Positions 16,226-62,543 of a DNA stretch of 64,000 nt are shown piece by piece. The stretch comes from Piscicola geometra (Eukaryota; Annelida; Clitellata; Hirudinida; Piscicolidae): the NCBI GenBank assembly GCA_943735955.1, contig OX030966.1, positions 1,295,018 to 1,359,017 on the forward strand, read 5' to 3'. Position 1 is the stretch's first letter; each line of letters begins with the position of its first letter. The translations under genes were made by a program, and so were the position numbers. The notes beneath the pieces were generated by a model that was given only the letters and a program-made list of their open reading frames with translations, searched no databases and was not told the DNA's origin.

Positions 16226-18436
16226 ATGATGGCTGAAAATTGCGAAAGAAGGGTCTTCATTAATGAGAATGGAGTGATAAAGGAGATCATTCTTCCAGCT
16301 GGCAGCTGTTATTGTCCTAATGAAGGCGAGAAAGATGAAGGTGGAAGAGAGGGAAAAGAGGGTGAGAAAAATCAAGATGATGGTGGATGTGAATTTAATG
16401 GAGAAGGAAAAATAAAAGCTAGTAAACAGAGAAGTATGCCAAGAAGAATAAATGCTGTAAGAAAAAAAATTGATGTAAGAAAGATAAATGAAGATGAAAA
16501 ACAGAATGGTGAAAGAGAAGAAGGGAAAATGGGTGATGGGACAATAAATTATGGAAGAGAACAGAAGGAGGAGGAAATAAAATATTGGAGTGAAGCAAAA
16601 AAAAATGAAGTAGATAAAAAAAAGAAGAATGAAGATGCGACACAAGAGAAAAAAATTATAATAGTTTTACCATCATCTTCATTATCATCATCATCTTCAG
16701 GTTCTGCAACTATAACTACTCATACAAATATTTTTTCAAATCTAAATAAACTCAGTAATCTCCGAGAAATTCAATCAAAAGACAAAAATCAGATTACAAA
16801 AGTTTTGGTGATTAACAAAGCTGCAACTATTCCATCCATCACCACTCCATCTATTATCAATCCATCCATCATTAATCCATCCATCGTTAATTCATCCATC
16901 ATCAATCCGTCCATCTCTATTCCATCTGTTACCCCTTCATCTTTGGAATCAAATTGCTTCAAGATTGTGACCTCAATAAATAATCTTCCCACTTTAAACA
17001 ACAATACTTTTTGCAACTTGAATACTGCAAACAATATGGCTTCTTCTATCCCAACTCAAAATGGCAACACTTTTTTCTTGAACAACAATTTATTGAGCAA
17101 TGGGCAAACAGTCATTCAACTATGCAACAACCAACCTGCATTCTGGCTCAATCAGACAGTTAACAACCAACCACTCAACCAAGATAATTTCCAACAAAAT
17201 CAAAAGTTTCAACAAAATTTATATTATCCTTCCAACCAACTGCAAAACCCACAATCCTTTTTGCAACTCCCCTCACAACAACCTTCCGCTCCACAACAAT
17301 TTTTCCAACTTGTTCTACCACAATCTTTGCAGTACCGATTAGCCACAACACCACAGCAAAATTTTACACCAATGTCCCAACAAAATATACTACTGCAACA
17401 ACCAAAAAATACAATACAACAACCAAAACAAAATTTAATACAACAACAAAATATACTACAACAGCAACCCCAAAATATAATACAACAACAACATATTTTG
17501 CAACAAAACCAACCAAGTATAATACAACAACAACATATACTGCAACAACACCAACCAAGTGTAATACAACAACAAAACATACTGCAACATCAACAAAATA
17601 TAATAAAACAACAAAACATTCAAATCTCTAATGCATCCAACATTACATTGACTCTTTCGAAAGCACTACAAGTTCCCTTCAGAATCTTTCCAGCCACTGT
17701 AGATCAAAATAATGGAAAAGAAATAATAAACAAAGGAACTGAAAGTAATAAAAAGGATAGAACAACTAGAGCAGAACTTAATCGAGACAATAAGCCAAGA
17801 AAATGTGTAAAAATCTATACGAAAAAATCTATTCAAACTAACACGAAAAGTAATATTTTTAAAGAAATCATTGATATATATTCATCTTCAGAAGATCGCA
17901 AATATGATTATATTGACAATTTAAAAGTTTTGGAAAATGCACCCGAGAACCAGAATGTTATTCAAATAACTCCAGAGCAGCCTTTGAATGCTGATCACAC
18001 TGATATTTCGAAATACGTTAAAGAAAAATTGAGAAGGGAGATTATAATTTCATCTGCGAAAAAATCTTCAAATAAAAAGGAAGCGATAAAAATAATTGGA
18101 AGTAAAGAGGAAGAGGATGGAATCCGAAAGTGTCTTTCATCCTTCCGGAAGATCCAGCCGATGGTAGATTTGATGGAAGAACCAAGAGTGGTTCTAAAAA
18201 AAATTGATTCACAAAAAGATATCCTAGAAAGCAACGGAAAAACAGATGGTGGTGATGAGAAAGGAGAAGAGGAAAAGAAGGAGAAATTCACTATGCTGCC
18301 CACGAGAAGTTCGCTGAGAAGGGCCAAGAAACGATGTTCGATGATCGTGTACTCGAGTGGTAGTGAGGAGGAGGGTGACTTTTGTGGAAACAAATCTAAA
18401 AGAAAGGCGCGAAATAGGAGTCCGAAAAAATATTGA
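16226..18436 (+). CDS. N/Q-rich low-complexity protein of unknown function, 736 aa
   Basis: Single long open frame, ATG-ATG at 16226-16231, stop TGA at 18434. N terminus RRVFINENGVIKEIILP, then a charged Glu/Lys/Gly region, a Ser cluster, a repeated P-S-I-I-N block at about 16825-16930 (residues 200-235), a Gln/Asn-rich prion-like segment at about 17150-17620 with recurring I-L-Q-Q and I-I-Q-Q-Q, and a basic C terminus with RRAKKRCSMIVYSSGSEEE. No domain was recognised. The acceptor just upstream suggests a non-coding first exon and a start as given. The last 100 or so codons (from 18125) are duplicated at 19266. Nuclear localisation is possible from the basic clusters but is not shown. Confidence 0.75.
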   Translation: MMAENCERRVFINENGVIKEIILPAGSCYCPNEGEKDEGGREGKEGEKNQDDGGCEFNGEGKIKASKQRSMPRRINAVRKKIDVRKINEDEKQNGEREEGKMGDGTINYGREQKEEEIKYWSEAKKNEVDKKKKNEDATQEKKIIIVLPSSSLSSSSSGSATITTHTNIFSNLNKLSNLREIQSKDKNQITKVLVINKAATIPSITTPSIINPSIINPSIVNSSIINPSISIPSVTPSSLESNCFKIVTSINNLPTLNNNTFCNLNTANNMASSIPTQNGNTFFLNNNLLSNGQTVIQLCNNQPAFWLNQTVNNQPLNQDNFQQNQKFQQNLYYPSNQLQNPQSFLQLPSQQPSAPQQFFQLVLPQSLQYRLATTPQQNFTPMSQQNILLQQPKNTIQQPKQNLIQQQNILQQQPQNIIQQQHILQQNQPSIIQQQHILQQHQPSVIQQQNILQHQQNIIKQQNIQISNASNITLTLSKALQVPFRIFPATVDQNNGKEIINKGTESNKKDRTTRAELNRDNKPRKCVKIYTKKSIQTNTKSNIFKEIIDIYSSSEDRKYDYIDNLKVLENAPENQNVIQITPEQPLNADHTDISKYVKEKLRREIIISSAKKSSNKKEAIKIIGSKEEEDGIRKCLSSFRKIQPMVDLMEEPRVVLKKIDSQKDILESNGKTDGGDEKGEEEKKEKFTMLPTRSSLRRAKKRCSMIVYSSGSEEEGDFCGNKSKRKARNRSPKKY

Positions 18437-18665
18437 ACAGTGTATGCCACTTTCACTTCTCATCGATTTCTGTTATAGTCTTTTAGGTTTTTTGATTATT
18501 CTATCGAATTTTGTTTCTTATCAAATTCATAATCAGGTTACATGTTAGCGTCATCAATACAAGGTGCACTGGCGCAGGGTTTTTATTTATATATATATAG
18601 AAGCTGAATCCATGCGTTTAAGAAATTGTTAACCAGTTTTAGAAATCGAGAAAGATCGTTTTGAA

Positions 18666-19122: not shown

Positions 19123-19268
19123 GTTGGGATACTCATTAATTATTATTTATAAATTAATTATCTCATTAATTAAATCAGTAATAATTTTAGTATTTAAAGT
19201 TGGTAATTATATTAATTATAAATGTTTAATTTTTCCAATTTTCAAACCAATTTGTCACCCACAGACGA

Positions 19269-19577
19269 AAGTGTCTTTCATCCTTCCGGAAGATCCAGCC
19301 GATGGTAGATTTGATGGAAGAACCAAGAGTGGTTCTAAAAAAAATTGATTCACAAAAAGATATCCTAGAAAGCAACGGAAAAACAGATGGTGGTGATGAG
19401 AAAGGAGAAGAAGAAAAAAAGGAGAAATTCACTATGCTGCCCACGAGAAGTTCGCTGAGAAGGGCCAAGAAACGATGTTCGATGATCGTGTACTCGAGTG
19501 GTAGTGAGGAGGAGGGTGACTTTTGTGGAAACAAATCTAAAAGAAAGGCGCGAAATAGGAGTCCGAAAAAATATTGA
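19269..19577 (+). pseudogene. Duplicated 3' fragment of the N/Q-rich gene
   Basis: Copies the last ~100 codons of the 736-aa gene, with the same stop (TGA at 19575). It lacks the 5' part and lies inside an HSD17B8 intron if transcription starts in unit 1. The fragment retains MVDLMEEPRVVLKKIDSQK and the basic tail, so decay has hardly begun. Confidence 0.85.
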
Positions 19578-19804
19578 ACAGTGTATGCCACTTTCACTTC
19601 TCATCGATTTCTGTTATAGTCTTTTAGGTTTTTTGATTATTCTATCGAACTTTGTTTCTTATCAAATTCATAATCAGGTTTCATGTTAGCGTCATCAATA
19701 CAAGGTGCACTGGCGCAGGGTTTTTATTTATATATATAGAAGCAGAATCCATGCGTTTAAGAAATTGTTAACCAGTTTTAGAAATCGAGAAAGATCGTTT
19801 TGAA

Positions 19805-24119: not shown

Positions 24120-25946
24120 ATGGAAGATATAACATTCGACGTGAAAGAGTTGTACGTGCTGGAAGCGAGGAATGGAAGAAAGTTCGACTTTGTGCGCTTC
24201 TCGATTGCCGACATTAATGGCATTTCCCGGACTGTTGAAGTTTCTAGAAAGCACCTGGAGAGCTTTCTGGTAGAAGGAATTCCAAATTTTGCAGGTGAAC
24301 GATCTGAAATACTTAATGTACCCTTCGTATCAACTAAATAATCTTTATTATTAGGAAAAATACTCTTCTAATAACACTTTAATTCAATTAAAAGTTTAAA
24401 ACACCCTAATCTATCAGGTGAAGTAGCGACTGCACCCAACGGCAGTGTCCTGGTGTCGCAGGAGTTGAAGGAACTCAAGTATGGAAATGCCCTGCATGTC
24501 GCCTGCAGAGGCACCCTCCACAAATGCTCCTGGGTGGCACTCACACAGAAGAACAAAAATGGGAAAAAAAGTTTGGAAATATATTTGTCAATTTTAATTT
24601 AAGATATACTGAATATTCGTCTCTGTGCCGACCCTTTGGTTCAATATGGCTGATTACTTGCGGTCAGACCAAAAACGGAGTGTCATCCGTCTATACCTAG
24701 ATTTTTAAGCCTTCATATATTTTCTCAAGTTGTACTCATTTAAATTATTGATTTTTTTAAACATAATTTTAAAGTAAGGTTTGGAGTAAATTTGAACGTT
24801 TTTAGATCGATTTAATACACTTTTAAACTAAATCGGTACTACAATATCTTTTATAAGAAGTAATATCAACATGTTCTGCAGAAATAAAATTTTAATTTAA
24901 AACTACAATCGCATCAACTTCTCAAAACATTCATAGAGAAGTGGCTGGTGGGAGAAGTGCTTTGCGAGGTGAAGTGGCCTCTGCACTACAAGGGAGGCTC
25001 CTTCATGCAGGCGTGTCCCAGGCACGCTCTTAGGAGGCAACTGCACTCGCTCCAGAAGCTCGGATACCAGCTGCTGTCTGCCTACGAGATCGAGTTCACC
25101 GTCTTCGAGGCATCAAAAGAAGTCGAGGTGTTTAGTTGCCGCTTTGGAGCCCTGACGCAGACTCACGCCAAGTTTGAAAACTTTCTGTACAGCATCGACG
25201 TCTCTTTGGCGGAGGCAGACATTGATATCCAAGATATTAGAATTGAAGCTGGTCCGGGCAAGTTTGAGTTGGTGATGGCTCCAAAATATGGGATTGACTC
25301 GTGCGATAATGCCTTCACGATCAAGCAATGCGTCAAGGACGTCTGCAGACAGATGGGGTACGACTCGAGCTTCATGTGCTGTCCCTTGATCCTCTCCACT
25401 CCGCAAGCCGCCCACTTGAACCTCTCTCTCTGGACCGAGTCTCCCGATGGAACGCGCACAAACGCCTTCCTCGACGCCAGCCGTCCTGACCGCATGTCGA
25501 GCCTTCTGCGCCACTTCCTCGCAGGCCTCGTTCAGCACAGCAAAGCTCTTTGCGCCTTCTGGTGTCCCACTGTTAACTGCTACACAAGATTGAAAAGATT
25601 CATGTATGCACCTAGGTCTGACTGGGGCATTGACAATCGAAAGTCGACGTTTCGCGTGAAGAACGAAGGAAGCATGCCTCCCTACCTGGAGTGTCGCAAG
25701 CCATCGTCAGCGTGCAACCACTACCTGGTGAGCGCAGCCACTCTGGTCGCTGGCATCGACGGCATCCGCAAGCAGACGCCTTTGTTAGCGGCGAGAGAGA
25801 AGCTTTTGGAAGCAGACGAGAAGGAAGAAGAGGAAGAGGGAGGAGGAGGGGATGACTTGCTGCCCACGTCGCTGGAGGAGGCTCTTGAGGAGCTGGAGAA
25901 GGACGAGGTGTTGAAAGAGGGCTTGGGAGAAGTGCTCGTCAGGTAG
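24120..25946 (+). CDS. LGSN-like: Lengsin-like glutamine-synthetase-fold protein, copy a, truncated (445 aa)
   Basis: Exons 24120-24294, 24418-24570, 24937-25946; phases consistent. N terminus MEDITFDVKELYVLEARNG with ADINGISR; catalytic-domain landmarks YEIEF, IEAGPGKFELVMAPKYG, AAHLNLSLW, KALCAFWCPTVNCY, SDWGIDNRKSTFRV, YLECRKPSSACNHYLVSAA, AGIDGI. The pattern follows vertebrate lengsin, a class-I glutamine-synthetase relative with no demonstrated ligase activity. GS-type Glu residues in YEIEF and IEAGPGKFE are kept, but the second His of the GS M-H-x-H segment is Asn. A TAG at 25944-25946 replaces a Trp codon of copy b; 33 more homologous codons follow to TGA at 26046-26048. An acidic E/G-rich insert lies near residue 395. 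It may still work without its C-terminal helix, or be an early pseudogene. Confidence 0.85.
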
Positions 25947-26832: not shown

Positions 26833-28444
26833 ATGAACTGCCAGATAGACATGGATGACATTAAATTCGACTTGAAGGAATTGTACGCGCTGGAAGCGAG
26901 GAATGGAAGGGAGTTCGACTACGTGCGCTTGTCGATGGCTGACATTAACGGCATTTCTCGCACGAATGCCGTTTCGAGAAAGCATCTGGAGGGTTATCTG
27001 GAGGAAGAATTCGCTAACTTCGTCGGTGAGTCAGTTATGCATTTTCTCGTCATCGGATAAGATTATGTATTGGACGGATGATGTTAGAGGTCAAACTGAA
27101 TGTTCCGTTCTCAGGCCGAGTAGCGACTGCACCCAACGGCAGTGTCCTGGTGTCGCAGGAGTTGAAGGAACTCAAGTATGGAAATGCCCTGCATGTCGCC
27201 TGCAGAGGCACCCTCCACAACTGCTCCTGGGTGGCACTCACACAGAAGGACAATAGCCACGAAAAAGGTTTAAAGTTATTAATATTCACGTTTTAATGTC
27301 CACACCAGCAATATTGCAAACAAACACCTCAGCGAAGTGGCTGGTGGGAGAAGTGCTTTGCGAGGTGAAGTGGCCTCTGCACTACAAGGGAGGCTCCTTC
27401 ATGCAGGCGTGTCCCAGGCACGCTCTTAGGAGGCAACTGCACTCGCTCCAGAAGCTCGGATACCAGCTGCTGTCCGCCTACGAGATCGAGTTCAGTCTCC
27501 TCGACAGCACCACTCTAGAACCAGTTTGTCAACGCGAATACACGTCATTGACTAGAACAATGGCTGAGTTCAATGACTTTCTGTATACGCTGAACGAAAG
27601 CGCTGCAAATGCCAATGTGGATGTTCCGATGATGCGAGTGGGAGGCGGCAAAAGCAGCTTCGAGCTGACGATGGCTCCCAAACACGGCATGGAAACCTCC
27701 GATGGCGCCTTCATTCTCAGAGAAATCGTCAAAGAAGTGGCCAGCTCTTCCGACCTCCACGCCACCTTCATGAGCTGCCCTTCTCGGCAAATGAAGCCTC
27801 AAGCCGCCCATCTGAACCTCTCTCTCTGGACCGAGTCTCCCGATGGAACGCGCACAAACGCCTTCCTCGACGCCAGCCGTCCTGACCGCATGTCGAGCCT
27901 TCTGCGCCACTTCCTCGCAGGCCTCGTTCAGCACAGCAAAGCTCTTTGCGCCTTCTGGTGTCCCACTGTTAACTGCTATAGAAGATTCAAAAAATCGAAA
28001 TATCTTTCTACGTCGGACTGGGACATTGACAATCGAAAGTCGACGTTTCGCGCGAAGAACGAAGGAAGCATGCCTCCCTACCTGGAGTGTCGCAAGCCAT
28101 CGTCAGCGTGCAACCACTACCTGGTGAGCGCAGCCACTCTGGTCGCTGGCATCGACGGCATCCGCAAGCAGACGCCTTTGCCAGCGGCGAGAGAGAAGCT
28201 CTTGGAAGCAGACGAGAAGGAAGAAGAGGAAGAGGGAGGAGGAGGGGATGACTTGCTGCCCACGTCGCTGGAGGAGGCTCTTGAGGAGCTGGAGAAGGAC
28301 GAGGTGTTGAAAGAGGGCTTGGGAGAAGTGCTCGTCAGGTGGTTCGTGCAGCTGAAACGAGAGAAAGAGATCGATTTCTTGAGGGAGTTTGAAGGAGAAG
28401 AGCTCTTCCAAAACGAAAGAGATCTCTATGTGCATTTCCTATAG
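26833..28444 (+). CDS. LGSN-like: Lengsin-like glutamine-synthetase-fold protein, copy b (485 aa)
   Basis: Exons 26833-27025, 27115-27267, 27333-28444, the same architecture as copy a; exon 2 is 153 nt in both. ATG 26833 (MNCQIDMDDI) is first in frame; an internal ATG at 26851 aligns with the copy a start, so either may be used. Landmarks: ADINGISR, YEIEF, SSFELTMAPKHG, AAHLNLSLW, DIDNRKSTFRAKNEG, YLECRKPSSACNHYL, and C terminus ERDLYVHFL, as in full-length lengsins. The GS-conserved Glu before the GPG loop (IEA in copy a) is replaced (MRVGGGKSS), so ligase activity is unlikely. Large parts of exons 2 and 3 are almost identical to copy a while the centre of exon 3 differs strongly. It lies 0.8 kb downstream of copy a's tail. 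Confidence 0.9.
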
Positions 28445-48169: not shown

Positions 48170-49489
48170 ATGGAAAAACTTCAAACAAGCGAAACCTATG
48201 ATGGCGAAGATGGAAAAGATTATTTGTCGACTAATGTTGCTAACAAACCATCACCTAGAGTAGTGGAAAGTTACAAGAAAAATGAAACTGAAGTGGGTGA
48301 TGGGAAAGTGTTTGTTAGTTGTTTTGGCAGTTTTTCTGAAGAAGAATTGTGCGTTGGAAAGATGGGGATTGTGGAAGAGGTGTGGAGTGTTTCGGATATA
48401 AGTGGAGAAAATAATATTTTTGGTAGGAAACTTAAAAAGAGAGATGATGAAGATGATGAAGATGTTGAGGAATGGGTGGATGAGGTGATGGAAAATTATG
48501 GTGAATATGATGGGAAAGAATATATTTTGAAAAAATATGAAAATTCAAGGCGAATTCTGGAATTATCTCAAAGTATTACAATTGTTCGAAACCAACTTTA
48601 CAGCGATGAAATCGATCGAAAAAGAAAAAGATTCCAACCGAGAAATCTACAAAAAAGTATCTTCAATAAAAAAAGACAAAATGATGTTCCAACAAGCGTC
48701 TTTCATGAAGTATCTATTTCAAGTTTCAAAGATTTTGATGAAAAATATAAGTACTCAAAAGATGGAGCTGTAAGGGAAAGTTGGATCAGTAGTCTGGAAA
48801 AAGTGTGCGATTCAGCTTTGAGCATCGATAATTCTTCAGAAATTATAAACCGCAGCGAGTATTCAGGTTGTTTAACTAAAAATGTTGGAAAAGAGTTCGA
48901 TGGTTTAAACTCTACATTAAGAATGGTGTACGGTTCAATGAAGGTTTGTGAGGGGTATGGCAACTGTAAAGACCCTCCTATGGAAACGATTGACTTGGAT
49001 GAAGGAACGAGCGATTGTGAGGTTGCTGAAACTGCAGCGAAAAATAATTGTTGGTTGAGGGGAGATTTGGATGAGTTTGAAGTGGATTTGCTGGAAAAGG
49101 AAAGTGTTCTTCGCAAGGAAAAAGAGAATTTTATTAAAGAGAGGGATGGAGAAAATAGAGGGAGTTGTAAGATTGGAATTAAGCATGCAATATCGTCTAT
49201 TGGAAGTTTAGAAAATATTGACTTGACTGTAAATCATGAAAAAGCTTCACTAGAAGACCAGCCTCCCACAGAAGAAAAACTTAACACCAAAGCAGAAAGT
49301 GAGAACGAAAAAATATTTTTTCAAAGAAAAGTAAATTTTTGTTTAGTTTCGAAAATACTGGCGTTGTATCTGAGAATAAAGGTTCTCCTGGGAGAGGTGC
49401 TGATGGAAAGTGTGTCTGGAAAGAAAAGTCGGGAAGATGAGCGAAGAAAAGCCCTACAGTTTCTGAAGCAGTTGCTTAAACGTTGGTGA
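48170..49489 (+). CDS. Unrecognised single-exon gene, 439 aa
   Basis: ATG 48170, TGA ends at 49489; AATAAA at 49524 could be its poly(A) signal. Acidic, Ser/Lys/Glu-rich, with an E/D block (KKRDDEDDEDVEEW), a basic stretch RKRKRFQPRNLQKS (a possible nuclear signal), and a hydrophobic then basic C terminus (LYLRIKVLLGEVLMES, ALQFLKQLLKRW). Codon structure and the lack of simple repeats argue that it is real. No known domain was recognised. It starts 443 bp after the NDOR1 stop, on the same strand, as a separate gene. Confidence 0.7.
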   Translation: MEKLQTSETYDGEDGKDYLSTNVANKPSPRVVESYKKNETEVGDGKVFVSCFGSFSEEELCVGKMGIVEEVWSVSDISGENNIFGRKLKKRDDEDDEDVEEWVDEVMENYGEYDGKEYILKKYENSRRILELSQSITIVRNQLYSDEIDRKRKRFQPRNLQKSIFNKKRQNDVPTSVFHEVSISSFKDFDEKYKYSKDGAVRESWISSLEKVCDSALSIDNSSEIINRSEYSGCLTKNVGKEFDGLNSTLRMVYGSMKVCEGYGNCKDPPMETIDLDEGTSDCEVAETAAKNNCWLRGDLDEFEVDLLEKESVLRKEKENFIKERDGENRGSCKIGIKHAISSIGSLENIDLTVNHEKASLEDQPPTEEKLNTKAESENEKIFFQRKVNFCLVSKILALYLRIKVLLGEVLMESVSGKKSREDERRKALQFLKQLLKRW

Positions 49490-50065: not shown

Positions 50066-53000
50066 ATGAACGCCATGTCCAAAACAAAACATAAAAAAAA
50101 GAAAGGAAAACCGCAGTATATGAAAGCATCCTTCGACCTGGGAGACACAAAACAAGTGAAACTGCTCAAGAACAAAGCCTACACGATAAACTTCTTAACG
50201 ACGAACAAGGACGGTGCTAACAAGCTAAACTCACCTCAAAAAAATGATAACATCACGAATCTTCTTGAAATGCTTGAAATCTTTGTAAATCAGGAGGAGG
50301 ATGAAGCTAAATATTTAGAAGAGGAAAAGGAAGAAGAGTTGCAAAAACTATTAGACGAACAAGAAGCGAAAGAGAGGAAGCGATTGGAGGAGGAAGAGAA
50401 GGCACGACAAGAAGAAGAGAAGGAGAGGTTGGAAGAGGAGCGACAAGAAAAAGAAAGACTGGAGCAAGAAGAACGGGAAACCCAGCAGTTTTTGAAGGAC
50501 TTGGAAGACGATGAAGAAGAAGAAGGAGAAGAAGAAGAGGAAGGAGAAAGAGGAGATGGAGATGAAGATGATTTAGGCAGGGAATATGACAGTGATAATA
50601 GACCTCGATGGGAGGATATTTTGTCTTCGTTGACTGACGACAGCAGTGACTGGACTTTCACCGATGGATCTGCCCAATCCGTCGGTAAAGTGAAGTGGGA
50701 TTCAAAATATGCCAAAGAAACCGACAGTCTCGACTCGAGCACGACTTTGAAGCGAAAGCGGAGATTCCAAAGATTATACCGGCCTACGTCTCATACCTCG
50801 TCTGCTTCTTCTGACTCTTACTCGACAGACTCTTTAGCGGAACCTTCTCGACGCCGTGGTCGTCGGGGTCGTCGTCGTGGTGGTGGTGGTGGTGGCCGTG
50901 GTGGTGGCCGTGGTCGTCTGAGTCGTCGCCCTCCTTTCAAGCCGAAAAAACAGCAAATGGCGATTTGGCGCTCCAAGCCAGGACCGCAACTTTGGCAATA
51001 CAAATCCAGGCCACATGGCCCAACTAAACAACCGTATGCCCACGAACTAGAGGCCGATCACATCAAGGCTAAAGTGCAGAGCAAGACCATTCCTAACCTC
51101 TTGACCAAGGCTATGTACATTTATCGGTGGAAGCTGAAACGTAAAAAACTTTCAATGAACTTCAAGAGAACTCTTCAAAAGGAAATGTACCAAGGAAACT
51201 TTCTGGACCCGCAGTACGAAGACAAGACGTATGAGGAAATGAAGAAGGAGAAGAGCCCTGAAGCACGAGCTAACATGCTGTTGCAAAAGGCGTGGGAAGA
51301 CTGGAGTGAAGTCATGCTGCAGGACAAGCCACCCAGACTCGACAAACCCAAATACGACGTTAAGAAGTTCGAAGCAATCATCAACGCAGAGGTCAAAAGG
51401 TACAGATCTCTGGGCACGTTAGGGAAAAAAGAGTCTGAACTTTTCCGTCCCGTCACCAAAGGTGGTCTCCCCTTCCGACAAATATCCGCAACCAAGTACT
51501 TTCTACCGATTGCATTGTCGCGAAGGAAGAGACGACGATATGAGAGGAAGTTTGATGAGACGCACAAGAGACGCCTCGAAAGTCAGTCGTACATCGATTT
51601 CAACGAGCTCTCCAAGCACCCTTCAGGACTCGCTTTCTCCGATTTTTGCATCAAATACAGGGTGGGTGTCTTGTGCAGCGTTCTTCTGGCGAATATTATA
51701 TTATTATAGATTTGTAAAAATGAAAAGAAGGCTGCATTCCATGGGGGGCGGAGCAGGGTGGGCCAGGTTGGCCACGGCCCACCCAATATTTAGAGTTAAT
51801 GGGTCACAATGTATTTGGCCAACCCAAAAATCAACTGATAATCATTTGGGAAACTGTTTAAAGTACAACACTATTCGAGGCTCTAACTTATAAAAAAATT
51901 CAAACTAATTCATTATAAACTAATTTTTTAACTAAACCATATATTTTTTACTTATCCTGTAACTAAAAAAAGTATATACCAAAATTTTGTTAACTATTTG
52001 CCCATCACTGATGCTGACGTAGAAAAATTGTTCTATGGGCGATGGGCGAAGAGTTAAATTTTAACAAGAAGCTAAATAAGCAAGGACTTGCAAACAATTT
52101 ATGTATTAAATTTTATCGGACTCTTGTGTTTGTGTCTTGTTTCGCGAAAGGTTTATTTTATAGTTGAAGGCTTAATTCATTAATAATTAATTAATTAATT
52201 AATGATTAATTGCTATATGAAACTTTGTTTAAACTATGAAGCGTTTCCTCACGCAATCCACTCAACCGAAAATACCAATTAAAATAGTTAAAAACGACCT
52301 CTCGTCTGATGTTATTATGGACGAAGTTGATACCAACGACCTCACTGATTGTCCAGATGATATGTTGTTGAGCGATGGACAAACATGATGTTAGCAGCCT
52401 AAGAAGATTTTTTAGGACTGTACAGTCTAAAAGGTTTTGGCCAGAAAGCGGAAATACTAGCGGCATGTCTGATTGACGTTATGACACGATGCCAACTGTC
52501 CTTCAGTGAACTACATGGTCAAGGTTACGACGAAGCCAGTGCAATGTCTGGAGCAATTTCTGGAATAGCTCAGCGGTTGAAGGAACGCTCACGAAATGCT
52601 CATTTAGTCCATTGTCTGGCTCACTGTCTCAATCTGGCGGCAGCAGAATCGAGAAAATCTGTTCCATTTTTGAGCGGCACACTGGAGTTTGATCAGCATA
52701 TCGTGACATTCATCCGCAATTCCGGTAAACGCACAGACCTGTTGAGAGACGTGCAAAGTCAGTTTGTATACAGTGAGAATGAGGAGCAGCACGTCTCGGC
52801 TCCAGTGACACAGGTGATGGTGAACAGTTTCAGTTTGATGATATAAAAGCATTCCAGCGTTCTCACTATTACGAGGCTGTAGATTCGCTATATAACACGA
52901 TCAGCTGGCGTCTTGACGACCAATCTTTAAAACCAGCCAGCACGCTAGAACAGTTGCTTCAATCAGCTTCGGTGGGTCCGCAGATAGACGAAAACCTGCT

Positions 53001-54235
53001 GAAAGAAGTCGTTTGTCTTCACCCACATCTCAACCGCATCAATCTCAAAAGTGAACTCGCTCTTCTGTCACATAACAACATCGCAGATAACATTCCGGCG
53101 ATTATTGCTTGGTTTAACGATGCCGATGTGAGACGTGACACTCACAAAACCATTTATTCAGTAGTGGCAACCCTGGTCATGCTTCCTAGCACCACTTCGT
53201 CATGTGAACGTTCGTTCTTCGGGCTGCGACGACTAAAAACGTATTTACAATCGACAATGGGACAGGAAAGACTGAATTCAATCATGATGTCAAATGTGCA
53301 TCTTGACTTGATGGACAGTATTAACATTGTGTCAGTGGCATATGAGTTTGCCAGTCTAAATGACTTACGTAAAAAATTCTATGGGCATGTTTCGTGATTT
53401 CTGATTTTTTAATGTAATGTTTGAGAGTGACTATTTAAAATTTTATGTAATATAAATCATAATATTTTCATTATTATATTTTTGACTTCTGACTTTATAA
53501 TTTTGAGTAAATTTTGAATGTTTTCAATTTTATAGAATATGAATCCACACGTCACACGCAATTTTGATTATCATTTTGTACAAATTAATTAAAATTTTCT
53601 CACTAAACGGTCGCCCATTGAGTTGAACATTGGAAAACTGAAAGGGGGAAGGGTATAGGGGAAAAACGAACACAGGGCTCTAGGTCCCATTAAAGGCAAG
53701 GCTATTAATTAACCAAATTTGTTTTAGCGACTTGCCATGTTGGCCCACCCAATATTTTGCTCGTGGCGTCCCCTATGCTGCATTCAGAGAGTTTTAGTTC
53801 TTAACATTGTGAGGCGGGTGATAAGGAGTTTATTGGATATTTATAAATTATATTTAACTTAAAGTATTTATTAATTTTTAAGCACTTAAATTTGACGAGC
53901 AAACTAGTGTGTTGCGAAGAAGGAATGTCATCCGTTTACGATCTAGATTTCAACTTACGATGGTCAGAACATATATATTGTTTCTAAATTTAGCTTAATA
54001 AATTATTTTAAAATGATAAAATAGTAAATAAATATTAATTTTCTATTTAACCAATTTATTTATTCGACCAAAATTCAGCTATGGAACCTTTTTTAAAATA
54101 AATTATGCATAAATTATTAATAAATTAATTAAACGAATCTGCAGTCGAGATCTACAGCAGTGCATTGACCAGACTGAAGAGCCAAATATCCATCCTTCAG
54201 GCCTCTCCTTTACACAATACAAAAATGTCATTTAA
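50066..54235 (+). CDS. HPSG-signature protein 1, Glu/Lys/Arg-rich, 557 aa
   Basis: Exon 1 50066-51661, donor gtgggt in phase 0; exon 2 54158-54235, after an acceptor ending ctacag, phase 0. N terminus basic (SKTKHKKKKGKP); residues about 75-170 a Glu/Lys/Arg coiled coil (LEEEEKARQEEEKERLEEE); an acidic run; about 258-292 an Arg/Gly block (RRRGRRGRRRGGGGGG); then a Trp/Lys/Arg-rich region (MYIYRWKLKRKKLSMNFKR). The tail carries the signature twice: HPSGLAFSDFCIKYR at the exon 1 end, then QCIDQTEEPNIHPSGLSFTQY in exon 2. No known domain recognised; a structural or nucleic-acid-binding role is only compositional inference. The 2.5-kb intron contains a complete hAT insertion (51740-53777). If exon 2 were skipped the frame would read on for 15 codons to a stop at 51709. 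Confidence 0.75.
51740..53777 (+). mobile_element. hAT (ZMYM1-like transposase) DNA transposon, 2,038 bp
   Basis: Flanked by the 8-bp target duplication CTGCATTC (51732-51739 and 53778-53785). Imperfect terminal inverted repeats begin CATGGGGGGCGGAGCA on the left and CATAGGGGACG on the right (reverse complement). Near both ends lie inverted copies of ggcccacccaatattt. Internal coding remnants at 52237-52389, 52481-52846 and 52954-53397 are frameshifted. It lies in the intron of HPSG protein 1, 78 bp past the donor. Confidence 0.93.
52481..53397 (+). pseudogene. Broken hAT/ZMYM1-like transposase
   Basis: First part (52481-52846) has GQGYDEASAMSGAISGI and HLVHCLAHCLNLAAAES, typical of the domain shared by ZMYM1-like and related hAT transposases. 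Second part (52954-53397) ends with the dimerisation motif LPSTTSSCERSFFGLRRLK. A stop at 52844 and the missing middle prevent a full protein. Confidence 0.85.
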
Positions 54236-54592
54236 GTCTTGCACCTGACAATCATGTTTTAAAACTTAATTCAATTATTCATGCAATTTAATTCTGTGTA
54301 TGCAGCAATATAAGTTGAAAATTCCATTTATTTATATTAAATATAATTCTATTAAGAAACGCTAGTTAATAGATAGAAATCAATCGTTCGCTAATTCCAG
54401 CAATAAATACTCTGCGCTTATGATAGACGATCAAATCAATGACGTTTGCACTACCTCAAAACAACAATAAAAAATTGAAACAAAGTATTGCAACAAACCA
54501 TGACCACCTTCAACTGAAAACATCCACACTTTAAACTTTTGAATTCTTAAAATAAAATTTAAAAGAGACTTTTGTTTTTCCTAACCCCTGAA

Positions 54593-57409
54593 ATGGACGC
54601 TTTTATCTCATCGTTGAGGAATTATCCAAAGAAAGAGAAGAATGAATTGGTGATGGGCTATGAAGAAGAAGTGGCAGACGAGAGTTCTACAGGAGCACAA
54701 GTGATGGATGACAACGATTACAAGGACCAAACTGAAGCAAATGCAGTGAAAACAGACACGCAGAAAGCAAATGCCATATCTTCATTTCGCTACAAGAAGA
54801 AAAAAATAGTTCATGAAGACGGCAATAGCTACATTGATACCCCCAAATTGTTTATTTCCAACTTTAACAGTAAAGATTCCCATGCATCTCTTTTTACAAG
54901 TGATGTCTCAGTCGAGCCAAAACTGAATCAAGTATTTAAGAAAAAAACTTTTGATTTCAAAAGTGGTCACACTTTTGAATCTAGTTCGACTTTTAAGCGC
55001 CATCAGCTTGCTACGCCTGAGACACATCTCCATGGAAAGACTGAAGCGACCACTGAACTCGATTTCAAAAAACCACTCGGAACGGTATATGACTATGAAG
55101 ATGCTTCGGAAATAGACCACAATGACAGTCTTGGAAAAAAAAGTTCAAAAGTAACTCAACAAGTGGAACATAAAGAAAGCAAAAAGGCTCCAGAAAAACT
55201 ATTACTGAAGCCGGTGCAGAACTGCAGAATGGAATTGCTGGAGACAGAAAAAGAAAGTATGATGGAGTTCGGAAAAGACATGGAAATCAATGTTTCAAGC
55301 AACAACAAGACTTCAAAACGTTCTCTCAATAACGAAAAAGAACCGAAAATGGGCACCAAGACCTTATTAGAGAGCAAGACTTTTGTTGCCAAAAGCAGCT
55401 TCAACCCCACTCCCAAATCCACCAAGATTTCTAAATTTTCACTGCCTGACGAGCCGGCGTCTGATTCGGAATTTCAGTTTGGCAAGCAGCTCATGGTCAA
55501 GAAGAGAGCCTCCACTGGAAATAAAGGGAAGCACAACACAGTTAATGATACAGATGTTGAAGATGCCGACTCCCCTGACATTCCGAGCGACGTGAACAAT
55601 GCAGGAAGTGATAAACCCCAAAAGGTAAAATCCGAAAAAAGTCCGAAAAAAACTGGATCACACTCCAAAAAGAAAGGGGATAAAAGCGACTATAAGGACG
55701 CGAAGAAATGTCCAAGTGACGAGAACTTGAATAAGTGTTGCGTGGAAATCCTGCACAAAATGTTTTGCCAGAAGAACAAGCCAGTAGAGAAGAAAAAAGA
55801 AAATCCGTGCAGGTTCATGTTGGCGGAACCAGAAGACCCATGCTGTCCCCCCAAGCCGAAGGAGCCCCAGGGTGGATGCGATGAGGTGTGCATGTCCTGC
55901 AGCGAAGCCATGTGCATGCTCCTCAACGCCATAAAGTGTGGCTCTTGCAAGATCCCCAGTTGCAGTGAGGGCAAGGCGGGTGAAAACGAGGAAGACAAGA
56001 CTGATAAGGTCGAAGTGATCTGCCAACAGCAAATGAATCTGGAGAAGGAAATGCACAAACTGAAGTCTTCCACCATCATGTACCTCAAGACAGCCATCGA
56101 TAAGAGCACGGAAGGAAAAGTTGAAATCTTGAAAAAAAATATGGCTGAGGTTGAGAAGAAAAAACAAAGTTTTCTCAAACTGGCAAGGACAAAAATTCAG
56201 AATCAAGACGCCGAGTTGTGTCAACTGAGACTGCAGCTGACGCAAAACCACGATTTCATGCAGGAGCAGCAAGAAATCATTAAAAATATGAAAGAGGAGT
56301 ACGAGGCAAAGGAAGAAGCCCTCAAGAAAAGCCTTGAAAAGCAGGCTGAAGAATTTAAGCAAACTCATGAAATGGAGTTGGAATTGGAAAGATCAAAAGC
56401 CAAAGAACAAATTTTGGATGCGCAATTGCAATTGCAATCGGGAAACGTAGGCAAGGAAAAGGAATTGATGGACAAGATACAAGAGCTGCAAGCGGAAAAC
56501 CTGGAGCTGGATAGAAACAGCAAGAACGCAGATGCAAACTGCCAGATGAAACTGCGTGAGCAAGAAGATGAGTTTAACAAAATCAAGATGCAAATGATGG
56601 CTGAGAACCAGGAGTGCATTATGCAGATTAAACTGTTTGAACAGAAGATGGAGTTGATGAATGAAACGAAAAACGATGACGCGGGAATGTCGTATTGTGA
56701 TTTCGAGAGATTCTGCAAAAACTTGTGTTGTGGTTCGGATTCTCCCAAAGGCAAAAAGTCAAAGAGAAATTGTGCAGCCAGTTCGAGTGCTTCATGTCTC
56801 AGTTGTGGTTACAGTGAATGCAGTGAAGGTGCAGCTTCCCAGAAGTGCTACAAAGCCCCCTGTGACGGCTCCTGGAACCCGAAAAAGTCCAAGAACAAGT
56901 CAGGTCTCAAGTGCGGAGTAGACGTTTCCACATTTGAGGTTCCTACTGGATCACCTTCGAAAAGATGTAAAACTTCAACTCCTCTCCCCTCAAAGCAAAC
57001 TCAACAAGTTTTTTCGAACAAAACCTCTCTCGCACCAGTGTCTCAGCACCTCGCAACCACACCAACCAACCAACGCTACCCCAGTATTGTAAGCCAGCGA
57101 TCAGCCCAGCTCCTCAACCAGTCTTCCAACCACCCTTTCGATCCTTCGGTAGACCGCTACACGACCGGCCCCACTTTTTCCATCAACCCCCTCTCCACCC
57201 TGTACCAAACTTGCGGCATCACAGACCCGCAGCAAGGATTCCAAATTTCCCAAATCGCACCTCATCAAATGGGTGTCTACCCTAGAAGTCCTGGTCAGAT
57301 GAACTTCTCGAACTGCTGCTCGAATGGTCTGGATGCTTGTCAGTATTACCAGCTCGGCAAGCAGAGCAACAACACCCTTCTCGATAATGTTCTCCCTAAA
57401 TACACGTGA
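54593..57409 (+). CDS. Coiled-coil protein with two Cys-rich regions, unknown, 938 aa
   Basis: Single exon from ATG 54593 (MDAFISSLRNYPKKEK) to TGA; an in-frame TTG upstream is not a likely start. Charged, Lys/Ser/Glu-rich first 380 residues; first Cys-rich block at about 382-461 (CCVEILHKMFC, CRFMLAEPEDPCCPPKPKEP, CDEVCMSCSEAMCMLLNAIKC); a long coiled coil at about 476-690 with heptad-like Lys/Glu/Leu pattern; second Cys-rich block at about 701-759 (FCKNLCCGSD, CLSCGYSECSEG, CYKAPCDG); Ser/Pro/Gln-rich C terminus. The Pro-Cys-rich and coiled-coil mix resembles flagellar or other structural proteins, but no specific family was identified. AATAAA at 57514 could end the transcript. Neighbours are the HPSG genes on the same strand. 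Confidence 0.8.
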   Translation: MDAFISSLRNYPKKEKNELVMGYEEEVADESSTGAQVMDDNDYKDQTEANAVKTDTQKANAISSFRYKKKKIVHEDGNSYIDTPKLFISNFNSKDSHASLFTSDVSVEPKLNQVFKKKTFDFKSGHTFESSSTFKRHQLATPETHLHGKTEATTELDFKKPLGTVYDYEDASEIDHNDSLGKKSSKVTQQVEHKESKKAPEKLLLKPVQNCRMELLETEKESMMEFGKDMEINVSSNNKTSKRSLNNEKEPKMGTKTLLESKTFVAKSSFNPTPKSTKISKFSLPDEPASDSEFQFGKQLMVKKRASTGNKGKHNTVNDTDVEDADSPDIPSDVNNAGSDKPQKVKSEKSPKKTGSHSKKKGDKSDYKDAKKCPSDENLNKCCVEILHKMFCQKNKPVEKKKENPCRFMLAEPEDPCCPPKPKEPQGGCDEVCMSCSEAMCMLLNAIKCGSCKIPSCSEGKAGENEEDKTDKVEVICQQQMNLEKEMHKLKSSTIMYLKTAIDKSTEGKVEILKKNMAEVEKKKQSFLKLARTKIQNQDAELCQLRLQLTQNHDFMQEQQEIIKNMKEEYEAKEEALKKSLEKQAEEFKQTHEMELELERSKAKEQILDAQLQLQSGNVGKEKELMDKIQELQAENLELDRNSKNADANCQMKLREQEDEFNKIKMQMMAENQECIMQIKLFEQKMELMNETKNDDAGMSYCDFERFCKNLCCGSDSPKGKKSKRNCAASSSASCLSCGYSECSEGAASQKCYKAPCDGSWNPKKSKNKSGLKCGVDVSTFEVPTGSPSKRCKTSTPLPSKQTQQVFSNKTSLAPVSQHLATTPTNQRYPSIVSQRSAQLLNQSSNHPFDPSVDRYTTGPTFSINPLSTLYQTCGITDPQQGFQISQIAPHQMGVYPRSPGQMNFSNCCSNGLDACQYYQLGKQSNNTLLDNVLPKYT

Positions 57410-57908
57410 AGATGATTTTTAATGGTATTTACGGTTTTCATTTTTTAGCTCTTATTTTCTATTTGATATTAAAACTATACAAAAACAGGGAAATCACAAA
57501 AACCAAAATACAAATAAACGCAATATTTTAACTTTCTGATTTTTAAACATTTACTTGAATGTTTAACTTCTATGAATTTTTAAAATAGTATTTGATTCAA
57601 ATCATATTCAAAAACACTGATCTGAATGACTCAAAATCAAAAGTGTAAAACAAGTTTTTGAAAATGAAAATAGAGTACTTTATTGTTTTTTTTAAATCAT
57701 AAAGAAACTTAGTCGAAAATTTTGAATCTAATAACGAATCGTTAATCCAGATTCATACAAATAAATTATTAACACAACAATTTTCAAAAAATGTTCAAAA
57801 AGTTTTATAAAATGAATACTTTTAAAAGCAAAGATTGGCCATTCTTTGCGTCATAACATAAACATCTTCAAAATTTACAAATGCATATAAGTTGTAAAGC
57901 ACAGAAAA
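57410..57908. other. Intergenic spacer
   Basis: AT-rich, with a poly(A) signal candidate near 57514; nothing else seen. Confidence 0.5.
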
Positions 57909-60568
57909 ATGGCAAAAATCGATGAAACAGTCAAAAGAAGATCACAAAAAAGAAGCTCTGCCAACGGTGAGTTATTTCCTTCATTAAAGTTCACTCGAAT
58001 CTTTCTGTTTGCCATTTCGTTTATGATTTCCTCCGTGCTACTGGGTAAACTGAAGAGTGGTTTCTAAATATCCTCATAACTGATGTGTCCTTGTGTTTAT
58101 TGGGTGTGTTGGAGGAATAAATAAACTTTCTATTTTGAGCCTTGTGAACGGTTTAGTTAAAAAGATTTAATGAATTATGAAGCAACTTATGAAAATAACT
58201 TGATGTTTTATACCACTCATTAATATATAAAGATTTTAAAAAAAAGTTTTTAGGGCTCTTTGACAAAGGATAAATGAGCATTGTTATATTGCATATTTCA
58301 TACTAGAGGTCGGACCGGGTACCCGATTTGACCGGGTACCCGCGGGTACCCGCGGGACTCCCGCGGGAACGGGAATGAAAATTAATTTCGGGACGGGAAA
58401 AGTCGGGAACCGGGAATAGGTTTTCGGGACGGGAACGGGAACGGGAATCAAAATTCAAATCGGGAACGGGAAAAGACGGGAACGGGAATCAACTTTTAAA
58501 TCGGGAACGGGAAAAACGGGAATAACAGTTATTGGGATTGGATTCTTTAACAATGATTTTTCAGCAAACTTTTAAGTATGGAAATCTTTATTTCATCGAT
58601 ACTCCATACTTAAAATAAGTATTAAATGCAATAGAAGTGTATAACGAAGCCACCATTGCCAATGTCGAAATCTCCAACACTACATTTGAATTTGTTATGA
58701 TGAGTCCAAAGATTAGGGAGATTAAAACAAATGGGTGATGATGAAAACTTTTCAGATGACATCAAAATGGTCAGTTATATTATTTTAATTTTATAAATTA
58801 ATACTTTGAATTTGAATGATTAATTTCCAAATGATTGCTCAGTTGATCATTTCGACAAAAGAAAAGATGCCATTGATCTTATTCATATGACAGCATGTCT
58901 GTTGCATCCTCAGTACGAAAGAATAATAGGAAAAAAGTTTGGGATAGAAAAGAAATAAATACCAAGACTTTCATTAGATTAAATTTAATTCTATTTTGTA
59001 CAGCCAGACCAAGCTGCAGTGCCGTTGAGAAAAAAAATAAATGATGGTTATTTAGACCTATTATGTTTGTTTTTATAACAAAATTATAATAAAATTATTA
59101 TACTATCAAATTATACGAATGATTTTATATTTGCAGTTGTGGAGAATAAAAATGTTGTCAAAAAACATATTTCTAACATTATTGAAGAATTAATAATAAT
59201 GAACGAAGAAAAAAATTCAGAAGAGGATGAATTGTACAAATATTCACAATTACGTCCCAAAAAATGGAAAATTATAAAGATGTTTTTTTTATTGGAATAA
59301 AATGAGCAATTTTAAAATACTACAAGAAGTAGCCAACATTTTGTTTAGTATATCTGCAAGTTATATTCGCTGTAAACGGAATTTTTCAATATGTGGTCGT
59401 TTAACTTCAGACCCAAAATCCTCTTATTTGAAAGCTGAAACTCTTAACGGTTTAACCCGTGTGAAAAGAAATAAAGACTTTATTGAATTACTCAAAAACA
59501 ATGACCAACTTCAATACTTTCATTTCAATAAATATTTGAAATTTAAATCGTGTTTTTTTTATATTTATTAAAAGAAATATTCTCTGACTTTCAAGTAACA
59601 AATTGTAAGAAATGTTAGAACTAGCAAGTTTGGGACCAGTGAAAACGGCAGCGAAAATGAATAAAAAAACAAAAAGCTTTCGGGAACGGCTCGGGATGGG
59701 AAAAAAAATTTCGGGACGGGACGGGACGGGAATCAAAATTCTGATGTCCCATCGGGAACGGGACGGGACGGGAAAAAACCTTTCGGGAACGGGACGGGAC
59801 GGGAATCAAAATTCTGATGTCCCATCGGGAACGGGACGGGACGGGAAAACAAATTTCGGGAACGGGACGGGACCGGGAATGAAAAATCGTCCATGTCCGA
59901 CCTCTATTTCATACCCTGTGTTACTGGGCGGTACATTTAATTGTCCTAAATTGCATTATGTGTGGATGGGTGTATTTTTCAACATTTAACTTGAAGTTGA
60001 ATCGTACTGTATGCTTCAGCACATTTATTAGTTCATGGTTTTGAAGTATGAATTAACATTATGAGATACTGAATTGCGGAACATGCTTGCAGAAAAAAGA
60101 GAAAACTCTTTCTTGAGCAGGCGTGTTGTAGTCCAAGACAAGAACAACAGTAGCAGAAAAACCCGATCCGATTCGGACAGTTCGGGAAGGTCAAAAAAAA
60201 CAAAACGAAAAAGATCGAATTCGTCCACTGCAAAAGATAAAAAGAAAAAAGAAGAGAAGAAAGACAAGAAGAATAAAAGCAGCTCGAATGACGACATAGA
60301 AAATAGAACTGCCAAGAAAGGTAACAAGAAAGAAAATGATAAGTCGAAAAAGAAAAGTAAAAAAAGTAGTGAGTCAAACCAGAAAGATTTCGATGATGAA
60401 GATAATGAAGGAAACAGCTGTGGCGAAGAAGTTTCTGATGACGACCGTGAACACCCATCTGGAATGACTTTCTCACAGTTCCGCTGCCAGTTCTTCTGCG
60501 CGTCTCGCTGTTGTTGCCAGCCCTGTTGCACTGGCTGTGACTGTTGCAGCTGTTGTGGCTGGTGCTAG
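57909..60568 (+). CDS. HPSG-signature protein 2, Lys-rich with Cys-rich tail, 177 aa
   Basis: Exon 1 57909-57966 (MAKIDETVKRRSQKRSSAN) with strong donor gtgagt; exon 2 60093-60568 after acceptor tgcttgcag; phases 1/2 agree. The body is Lys/Ser-rich (KDKKKKEEKKDKKNKSS), then an acidic stretch, then HPSGMTFSQFRC and a tail with 13 Cys in the last 29 residues (SRCCCQPCC, CDCCSCCGWC). If exon 1 is wrong, an ATG at 60083 would start a 161-aa form. The 2.1-kb intron contains hAT element copy 2, without which it would be about 0.5 kb. Poly-Cys tails of this kind can be disulphide-crosslinked or metal-binding; which applies here is unknown. Confidence 0.75.
58304..59906 (+). mobile_element. hAT-superfamily DNA transposon, degenerate copy 2 (1,603 bp)
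   Basis: Same family as 40453-41980: termini TAGAGGTCGGAC / GTCCGACCTCTA, with target duplication TTTCATAC (58296-58303 and 59907-59914). The right arm has more gggacgggacgggaatc units and repeats the block containing ctgatgtcccatcgggaacg twice, and the left arm has additional cgcgggtacc units, so arm length varies between copies. Transposase remnants are frameshifted near 59265. Confidence 0.95.
59302..59571 (+). pseudogene. hAT transposase C-terminal fragment
   Basis: 89 codons matching copy 1 (ILFSISASYIRCKRNFSICG). The conserved C-E-R of the dimerisation region has become C-K-R, and a frameshift precedes it. Confidence 0.82.
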
Positions 60569-60811
60569 GCGAATTGAGTAGATTTGAAAAAAGTATAAAA
60601 TATCGTTTATTTTAATGTGTTTTTTTAAAGAATATTTTTTATTATTACGAACTGAAACTTTTTTTTTAGGGGTTGACGTCAAAAATAAATTCTCAACGTT
60701 TTTAATAACAATAACAACAAGCAACATCAAGCAAAGATTTTATTTAAAAACCGTAAATGAGTAAAAGATTCATAAATGACTGGCATAAAAAGACTTTGAT
60801 CACTCTCAAAA

Positions 60812-61354
60812 ATGGAAAAACTCAATGAAAAAATGACGAAGGCCGTCCAAATAAAAATGATTCACGAACTCTTGAATGGCAACAACAATTACCATTTCGA
60901 CATTGAGAACTTGAACAACAACAAAAGAACCGACAGTGAGTCTCCGAGGAAGAAACGGAGTGGTTCTCCACGTTCCGACTCGCCCTCCAGGAAGACCGGA
61001 TCGAGCAAGAAGAAAGGAGGAAAGAAGAAGAAAGATGATGGCAAGAAGAAAAAGATTGACCACTGCGTGCGTGAAGACGACTCCGAAGAAGTTCAACTCG
61101 ACGATGACGCACCAACTCTCTCCTCGTACCAAAAAGTTCTGGAAAGAGTGTTTAACACACACAACGACAAGATGGCCAACAAGCTGACCTGCCTCTGCAC
61201 CATGAACTGCCTCGCCATGCTGGTTCCCAAGGCGACGGAGTTCATTGAGGCGGAAGATGAGTTGAAGAAACGCATCCAAGGAGGTGGTTGCGGAGGGGAA
61301 GACAGCAGCAGCAAGAAGACAAAGTCGAACCACGATGATGACGATTCGTCGTAG
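60812..61354 (+). CDS. Lys/Ser-rich small protein, unknown, 180 aa
   Basis: Single exon from ATG 60812 to TAG 61352-61354; poly(A) signal candidate AATAAA at about 61526. Order: helical N terminus MEKLNEKMTKAVQIKMIHEL, Asn-rich spacer, Ser/Pro/Lys-Arg block (SPRKKRSGSPRSDSPSRK), poly-Lys run, acidic patch, a likely folded segment (SSYQKVLERVFNTHNDKMAN, CLCTMNCLAML), and an Asp/Ser/Lys tail. It lacks the HPSG signature but shares composition, size and orientation with its neighbours. Confidence 0.7.
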   Translation: MEKLNEKMTKAVQIKMIHELLNGNNNYHFDIENLNNNKRTDSESPRKKRSGSPRSDSPSRKTGSSKKKGGKKKKDDGKKKKIDHCVREDDSEEVQLDDDAPTLSSYQKVLERVFNTHNDKMANKLTCLCTMNCLAMLVPKATEFIEAEDELKKRIQGGGCGGEDSSSKKTKSNHDDDDSS

Positions 61355-61866
61355 AAATTCTGCGTTTTTGTATGGGAGATTGCAATGGACCATTGCCAAT
61401 GGTGTAGGTTTTGTCCGGAAGATGGCAATGGTGTGGGTTACTTACTTCAAGTTTTCTTTGGACTCTCAATTTTGAATTGAATTATCTGTTTAGTTTCATT
61501 TTATTAGCAATAACCTATTTGAAAGAATAAAAATCTTGTGGAAAACTTTTTTGAAAATAAATTTTGTTCTTAAATAGTCCTTGTGTACTTTCACAAATTA
61601 GATTAAATGAAACAAACTCTTTTCGAGATGCTGAAATAATAACAAAATTATATTTTGAAACTTTCATTTTAATTTTAAAATGTAAAAAAAATTATCCGCC
61701 TTCGTTTATATTCCCAAAACGTCATCAATAAAAAACAAAAATTTGAAAACAAAATCTTCAAGAAAACAGATCACTAGAAAGATTTGGAAAAAACAAGCAA
61801 AATAAAAACAAGAAAAAAATAAGGAAAAATAAAATATAGATAAAATAGAATAAAACTAAACTAAAA

Positions 61867-62543
61867 ATGGACTCTGACTACGAAACGAATATGGGAGAAG
61901 TGAGAATTTCTTCAATAAAATTTTTTAAAGATTTTTTTTCTTGATGAATTTTTCTTATTTAATCTTCAGGAAAGATATTTTTATGATGAAATAGTTGTGA
62001 TTTTAAAAGATTGAAAAAAGCGACCTACCTTTAATTTTCATCAACCCGCACATCACGACACAGGGCATGGATGCAGACGAGGAAGATGGAGATATGGAGA
62101 TGTATGAGGAAGAGGAGGAAGATGAGAGACCACCACCAAGACGAGAAACCGAACACCGCCACCACAGAGACCACAAGAACAAGCACAAACACAAGAAGAA
62201 GCACAAGAAGGATTACAACTACAACGCCAGAGATTCTGACGCTTCATCGAGTTCCACCAAACAAGAAAAGTCGTCCACTAAAGAGTCCGATGAATCCTCG
62301 CGTCCGTGCAGGGTGAAGCAGGGTGGAGTGTGTCTCGACTGGCATCCTTCTGGCTTCACCTTCTCGGAGTTCAGAGGAAACTTCACGAACTGCGTCAAAG
62401 AGGTCAGTCTGTACACTGATGAGGAGGTAGCCATCCTGAGACAACGCAAGGGAATCCAGCCGCCGAAGAGGAAGAAGAGTATCACAGTTCTCATACCTGA
62501 TTTCCTCCTCAACAACCCAGGCGTCTTTTTCTACCAGCCATGA
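61867..62543 (+). CDS. HPSG-signature protein 3, 170 aa
   Basis: Exon 1 61867-61899 (MDSDYETNMGE), donor gtgaga, phase 0; exon 2 62064-62543 after acceptor gacacag, phase 0. Acidic N terminus, then His/Lys-rich region (EHRHHRDHKNKHKHKKKHKK), Ser-rich spacer, then CLDWHPSGFTFSEFRGNFTN and a 57-residue extension ending LIPDFLLNNPGVFFYQP that the other HPSG proteins lack. Poly(A) signal candidate AATAAA near 62678. Function unknown. Gene form (tiny first exon, large second exon) matches HPSG protein 2. Confidence 0.78.

Follow-up and report, generated by a model that had tools for sequence, protein, structure and literature searches.

The HPSG motif and its distribution

Three plus-strand genes (A, C, and E) of the leech Piscicola geometra share the ten-residue motif HPSG[LMF][AST]F[ST][DQE][FY], which is not a chance product and which, within the readable genome, is specific to their locus. 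The genes lie in the window, the stretch of 64,000 nucleotides that was analysed (C12:1295018-1359017). There is about an even chance that they belong to a lineage-restricted tandem cluster of genes for intracellular, mostly disordered, Lys-rich proteins, in which A, C, and E share a docking motif for a common partner. A shared docking motif is the most likely reading, ahead of a passive remnant of duplication.

The motif occurs twice in gene A, once in gene C, and once in gene E. Copy 1 (HPSGLAFSDF, 51617..51646) is found in exon 1 of A and copy 2 (HPSGLSFTQY, 54191..54220) in exon 2 of A. Copy 3 (HPSGMTFSQF, 60452..60481) is found in C and copy 4 (HPSGFTFSEF, 62343..62372) in E. All four copies are in frame on the plus strand and lie within 10.8 kb, which confirms the sites and the three genes named in the initial annotation.

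The strict motif was observed four times in the window and in none of 200 simulated 64-kb windows (first-order Markov). The bare HPSG string was observed six times, as against 0.475 per Markov window (200 simulated). Two of the six bare strings, at 18138 and 19279, lie inside a local 418-bp direct duplication (18122-18539 and 19263-19680, 98.8% identical). The duplicated DNA is the 3' part of a frame of 748 codons, and the two strings do not fit the signature.

The genome (171,024,195 bases in 66 contigs) was searched with three DNA patterns that together take in every codon choice for the seven-residue core HPSG-[FLIMV]-[AST]-F, the second and third patterns covering the other Ser codons. The three patterns gave 12, 0, and 0 matches and their reversed controls 1, 3, and 0, where the counts cover motifs uninterrupted by an intron, in readable sequence outside the simple repeats that are skipped. 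The 12 core matches consist of the four cluster sites, six sites in one minisatellite on contig C11, and two single sites. Only the cluster sites (4 of 12) carry the full ten-residue signature in the readable genome. Random recurrence in unrelated proteins of the same genome had been named beforehand as a refutation of the gene family, and no full signature was found outside the cluster in that readable sequence.

The C11 minisatellite (C11:8094357-8094593) has a 36-base unit in an open frame that repeats HPSGVAFSSACL. Its six matches read HPSGVAFSSA and fit the core, not the signature. The two single sites were set aside as family members since their readable residues break the signature (HPSGLAFSSN on C1; HPSGLSFQQ, the readable part, at C12:5973900).

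Gene A and its relative

Exon 1 of gene A (50066..51661, plus strand, 532 codons) encodes a charged helical N-terminal half, a conserved C-terminal region, and motif copy 1. It is supported by its open reading frame, three-base periodicity, and one relative. A 2,496-bp intron (51662..54157) is proposed from its GT..AG ends and phase, followed by a predicted exon 2 (54158..54235) of 25 codons plus stop with an in-phase acceptor and the in-frame motif. The donor (ACAGG/GTGGGT) and the acceptor (CTACAG/CAG) are both in phase 0. The motifs begin at residues 518 and 544 of the 557 residues of spliced A. The reported double occurrence in one protein therefore holds if the two exons are joined across the putative intron, but the spacer is 16 residues and not 15. 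The 49-residue tail of A was compared with the genome (E up to 10), and only its own two exons were matched.

Residues 305-557 of spliced A were searched against about 5.8 billion proteins (534 candidates, E up to 1). One relative was identified, the predicted protein P0001 of 444 aa (E 2.1e-39). P0001 keeps SKHPSGLGFSDFCIKHR and then diverges where the intron of A begins, after I-K-[YH]-R, which supports the exon boundary of A. The motif of P0001 reads HPSGLGFSDF and keeps nine of ten positions; the G at position 6 is outside [AST]. Both proteins are identical in 178 of 399 aligned columns. The best-conserved 25-residue window of A is 508-532 (21/25 identical), which includes the motif at 518-527. 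Several others, with starts at 494-507 and at 14-19, have 20/25 identical. In the same collection, no relatives were found for gene E (29 candidates, E up to 10) or for residues 370-520 of gene B (87 candidates, E up to 1).

The proposed intron of A contains a hAT-type transposon remnant (52403..53397, plus strand). Its part 52783-53394 matches Dimer_Tnp_hAT above the Pfam cut-off (E 9.3e-05), and the transposase-like Pfam matches of 52403-52843 are all sub-threshold. Directly upstream of A lies an acidic and Lys-rich single-frame gene (48173-49489) with strong three-base periodicity and no Pfam match, with which the cluster may begin.

Genes B to E

Gene B (54593..57409, plus strand) encodes 938 aa with Lys-rich, coiled-coil-like, and Cys-rich segments. 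Gene C (60083..60568, plus strand, 5' end uncertain) encodes 161 aa in which a Lys/Ser-rich part is followed by the motif and a Cys-rich tail. Gene D (60812..61354, plus strand) encodes 180 Lys-rich residues. Exon 2 of gene E (62064..62543, plus strand) encodes a His/Lys-rich part, the motif, and a 56-residue tail. A short first exon of gene E, MDSDYETNMGE (61867..61899), is probable and is proposed from a phase 0 donor (GAA/GTGAGA). B, C, D, and exon 2 of E are supported by open reading frames and periodicity. The three-base periodicity of A exon 1, B, and D is above all 300 background draws, that of E above 299 of 300, and that of C above 297 of 300, the background being stretches of the window picked as non-genic by the analyst. 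A to E thus all look coding, C least surely.

Lys makes up 10.7-17.4% of the residues across A to E, and Cys 8.7% in gene C. B and D had been described as similar in composition to the motif genes, and both are indeed Lys-rich like the others and lack the motif. The description of the proteins outside the motif as low-complexity is only partly right, since about residues 435-532 of A are non-repetitive and conserved with P0001. The motif was also placed near the C terminus, which fits A but is less apt for C (residue 124 of 161) and E (residue 105 of 170 when the putative exon 1 is included), so that "C-terminal half" is the more exact wording. None of A to E begins with a hydrophobic signal-like stretch, as judged by eye, which argues against a cuticle or cocoon role and for an intracellular one.

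There is no convincing second copy of C, D, or E in the genome. The search with these genes gave eight weak second matches in all (E 0.011 to 9.8), one of which (C, E 9.8) gave no locus. The candidate copies of C (L034, L035, L036) and E (L028) were rejected, their loci being simple repeats or low-complexity stretches; those of D (L030-L032) were judged by motif scan alone. No HPSGxxF was found in six frames of these seven loci.

Surroundings of the cluster

The cluster continues beyond the window (64001 onward, L015) with six more plus-strand frames that are Lys/Arg- or Cys-rich and lack the motif. Four of these frames and one downstream tail were compared with Pfam, and none gave a match above the cut-off. 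A 201-aa frame (64751-65356, L015:751-1356) has a Lys/Ser-rich first half, a seemingly less repetitive second half, and no Pfam match. Frames H, I, and J (68224-69917, L015:4224-5917) lie in tandem; each has LGxxNNN or LGCNNN close to its start, and all three contain an I[IV]VLP box. The fourth frame, K (to 70497), has neither the LG string nor the box. I and J are tandem copies that both begin with MLGLDxNNN (E 0.045, 33% identity). The tail of E (KKSITVLIPDF) loosely resembles the I[IV]VLP box.

Elsewhere in the window, two adjoining glutamine-synthetase-like frames (24888-25946 and 27257-28444) share stretches of identical DNA, 127 to 166 bases long, which points to a recent duplication or gene conversion. 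The first one matches Gln-synt_C (E 6.3e-65). Frames that look like IFT172 (intraflagellar transport) are present on the minus strand between about 15 and 27 kb beyond the end of the window (L016-L017).

Known families and structure models

No Pfam match at curated cut-offs was found for A exon 1, B, C, D, E, and P0001, or for the tails of A, C, and E. The initial annotation had recognised no described family with this signature and had named a Pfam match as a refutation; the negative result for A to E and P0001 agrees with it. Three queries were compared with PDB (the motif alignment, A plus P0001, and P0001 alone), and none gave a convincing match. The PDB profile matches listed for the motif are mostly antibody or nanobody strings like SGFTFS, and TATA-binding protein and spike protein are also among those listed (E above 0.9).

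A plus P0001 exhibit a weak profile similarity to SIN1/MAPKAP1 of TOR complex 2 in two segments (total E 0.006). This likeness was rejected as chance because the segments are weak (E 7.6 and 11) and in reversed order, with no colinear match to RBD and PH, and no Pfam SIN1 model matched A or P0001. SIN1 was also not found with P0001 alone. No match to the annelid erythrocruorin linker family was obtained, but the control genomes gave none either, so that this negative carries no weight.

In the AlphaFold model of exon 1 of A, built from two sequences, the mean pLDDT is 47.8 and 337 of 532 residues fall below 50; the one part modelled with confidence is a long charged helix lying between residues 58 and 150. 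For E, modelled from a single sequence, the mean pLDDT is 49.2, no residue reaches 90, and 93 of 158 fall below 50. In either model a short helix of low confidence follows directly on HPSG (523-530 in A; 99-109 in the 158-aa piece of E, where HPSG is at 93). Around the motif, block means of pLDDT are 34-43 for A and 39-43 for E. The motif is read here as a putative N-capped aromatic docking helix.

Origin of the motif copies

The motif copies are 60-73% identical in DNA, and their 60-base flanks are 15-33% identical. In the five invariant residues, third codon positions vary in 5 of 5 cases and first and second positions in 0 of 10, a contrast that was taken on sites chosen for identical residues and does not prove selection. 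The low flank identity and the varying third positions indicate that no recent DNA duplication gave rise to the copies. Shared upstream DNA elements were also sought between the genes and rejected, as the commonest shared 8-mers are A/T-rich.

A lineage-specific cluster, as initially suggested, is supported by the local clustering, the lack of a Pfam family, and the lack of the full motif elsewhere in the readable genome. The term "gene family" is justified at the level of one motif. Homology of the proteins is not established since only about ten residues are common and the flanks are 15-33% identical.

Pure ancestry is possible, at clearly lower probability than docking. A motif-bearing gene would have been duplicated in tandem and the last exon duplicated in A, and the motif would be a slowly eroding domain remnant that has no shared partner today. 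The neighbouring genes on one strand, the intron between the two copies in A, and the recognisable tandem copies I and J downstream are all consistent with this. A passive remnant would not be expected to hold while its flanks have fallen to such identity, nor to lie in the best-conserved window of A against P0001.

Independent gain of the motif by unrelated disordered proteins of a co-regulated cluster, all binding the same partner, is improbable. Short motifs arise easily in disordered proteins, which is a point for such convergence, as is the absence of flank similarity among the four sites. However, common descent is the simpler account of ten constrained positions in adjacent genes on one strand, and no further full signature was found in the readable genome.

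Chance resemblance among low-complexity proteins is very improbable: the biased composition, and the lack of relatives found for E and for residues 370-520 of B, would allow it, but it is opposed by the empty Markov windows, the confinement of all four genome-wide signatures to 10.8 kb, and the nine positions kept in P0001. Least credible of all is descent of the motif from a WD40 blade. The turns of such blades often read (W/F)HPSG, as does DWHPSG in E, but positions 7-10 of the motif do not fit a blade, and no WD40 match was found in Pfam or among the PDB profile matches listed.

A shared docking motif is the reading that we carry forward, with docking, the common partner, and the helix being what we infer. 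HPSG would cap a short helix, the aromatic face of this helix (positions 5, 7, and 10) would dock into one groove of the common partner, and the charged and Cys-rich remainder of the proteins would pack or crosslink. Gene A with its two copies would encode a two-armed (bivalent) scaffold, and C and E would encode one-armed members of the same assembly. From composition, our guess is that the assembly sits in sperm or cilia. The structural or gametic role suggested initially is likewise a guess, one that suits both the composition and the missing signal-like starts. The fuller proposal is unlikely as a whole: that a new docking motif and a single partner hold together an intracellular assembly specific to leeches, located for instance in the sperm tail or the nucleus and encoded as one chromosomal module, with A bridging C and E and much of the rest free to diverge.

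If the docking reading is true, the ten-residue motif, the only detected common feature of the three clustered proteins, offers a testable case of lineage-specific genes that stay functionally connected through a docking motif. HPSG-x-x-F would then serve as a sequence handle for partner finding and for the annotation of leech orphan genes.

Comparison with known systems

Literature searches for "HPSG motif" found no description in the library searched, and those for testis-specific clusters and annelid orphan or testis-specific genes found nothing. The motif resembles short linear motifs in its length of about ten residues, its aromatic core, its location in low-confidence and probably disordered regions, and the presence of at least one D or E within about six residues before each cluster copy. 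It differs from them in having no Pfam match and a partner that is only postulated.

The Cys-rich Mst proteins of Drosophila form tandem clusters of fast-evolving small testis proteins. The leech genes are known from sequence alone, and their common feature is a motif and not composition alone, in which they differ from the Mst clusters. They are similar to those clusters in being small, tandem, Cys- or Lys-rich, and apparently lineage-restricted.
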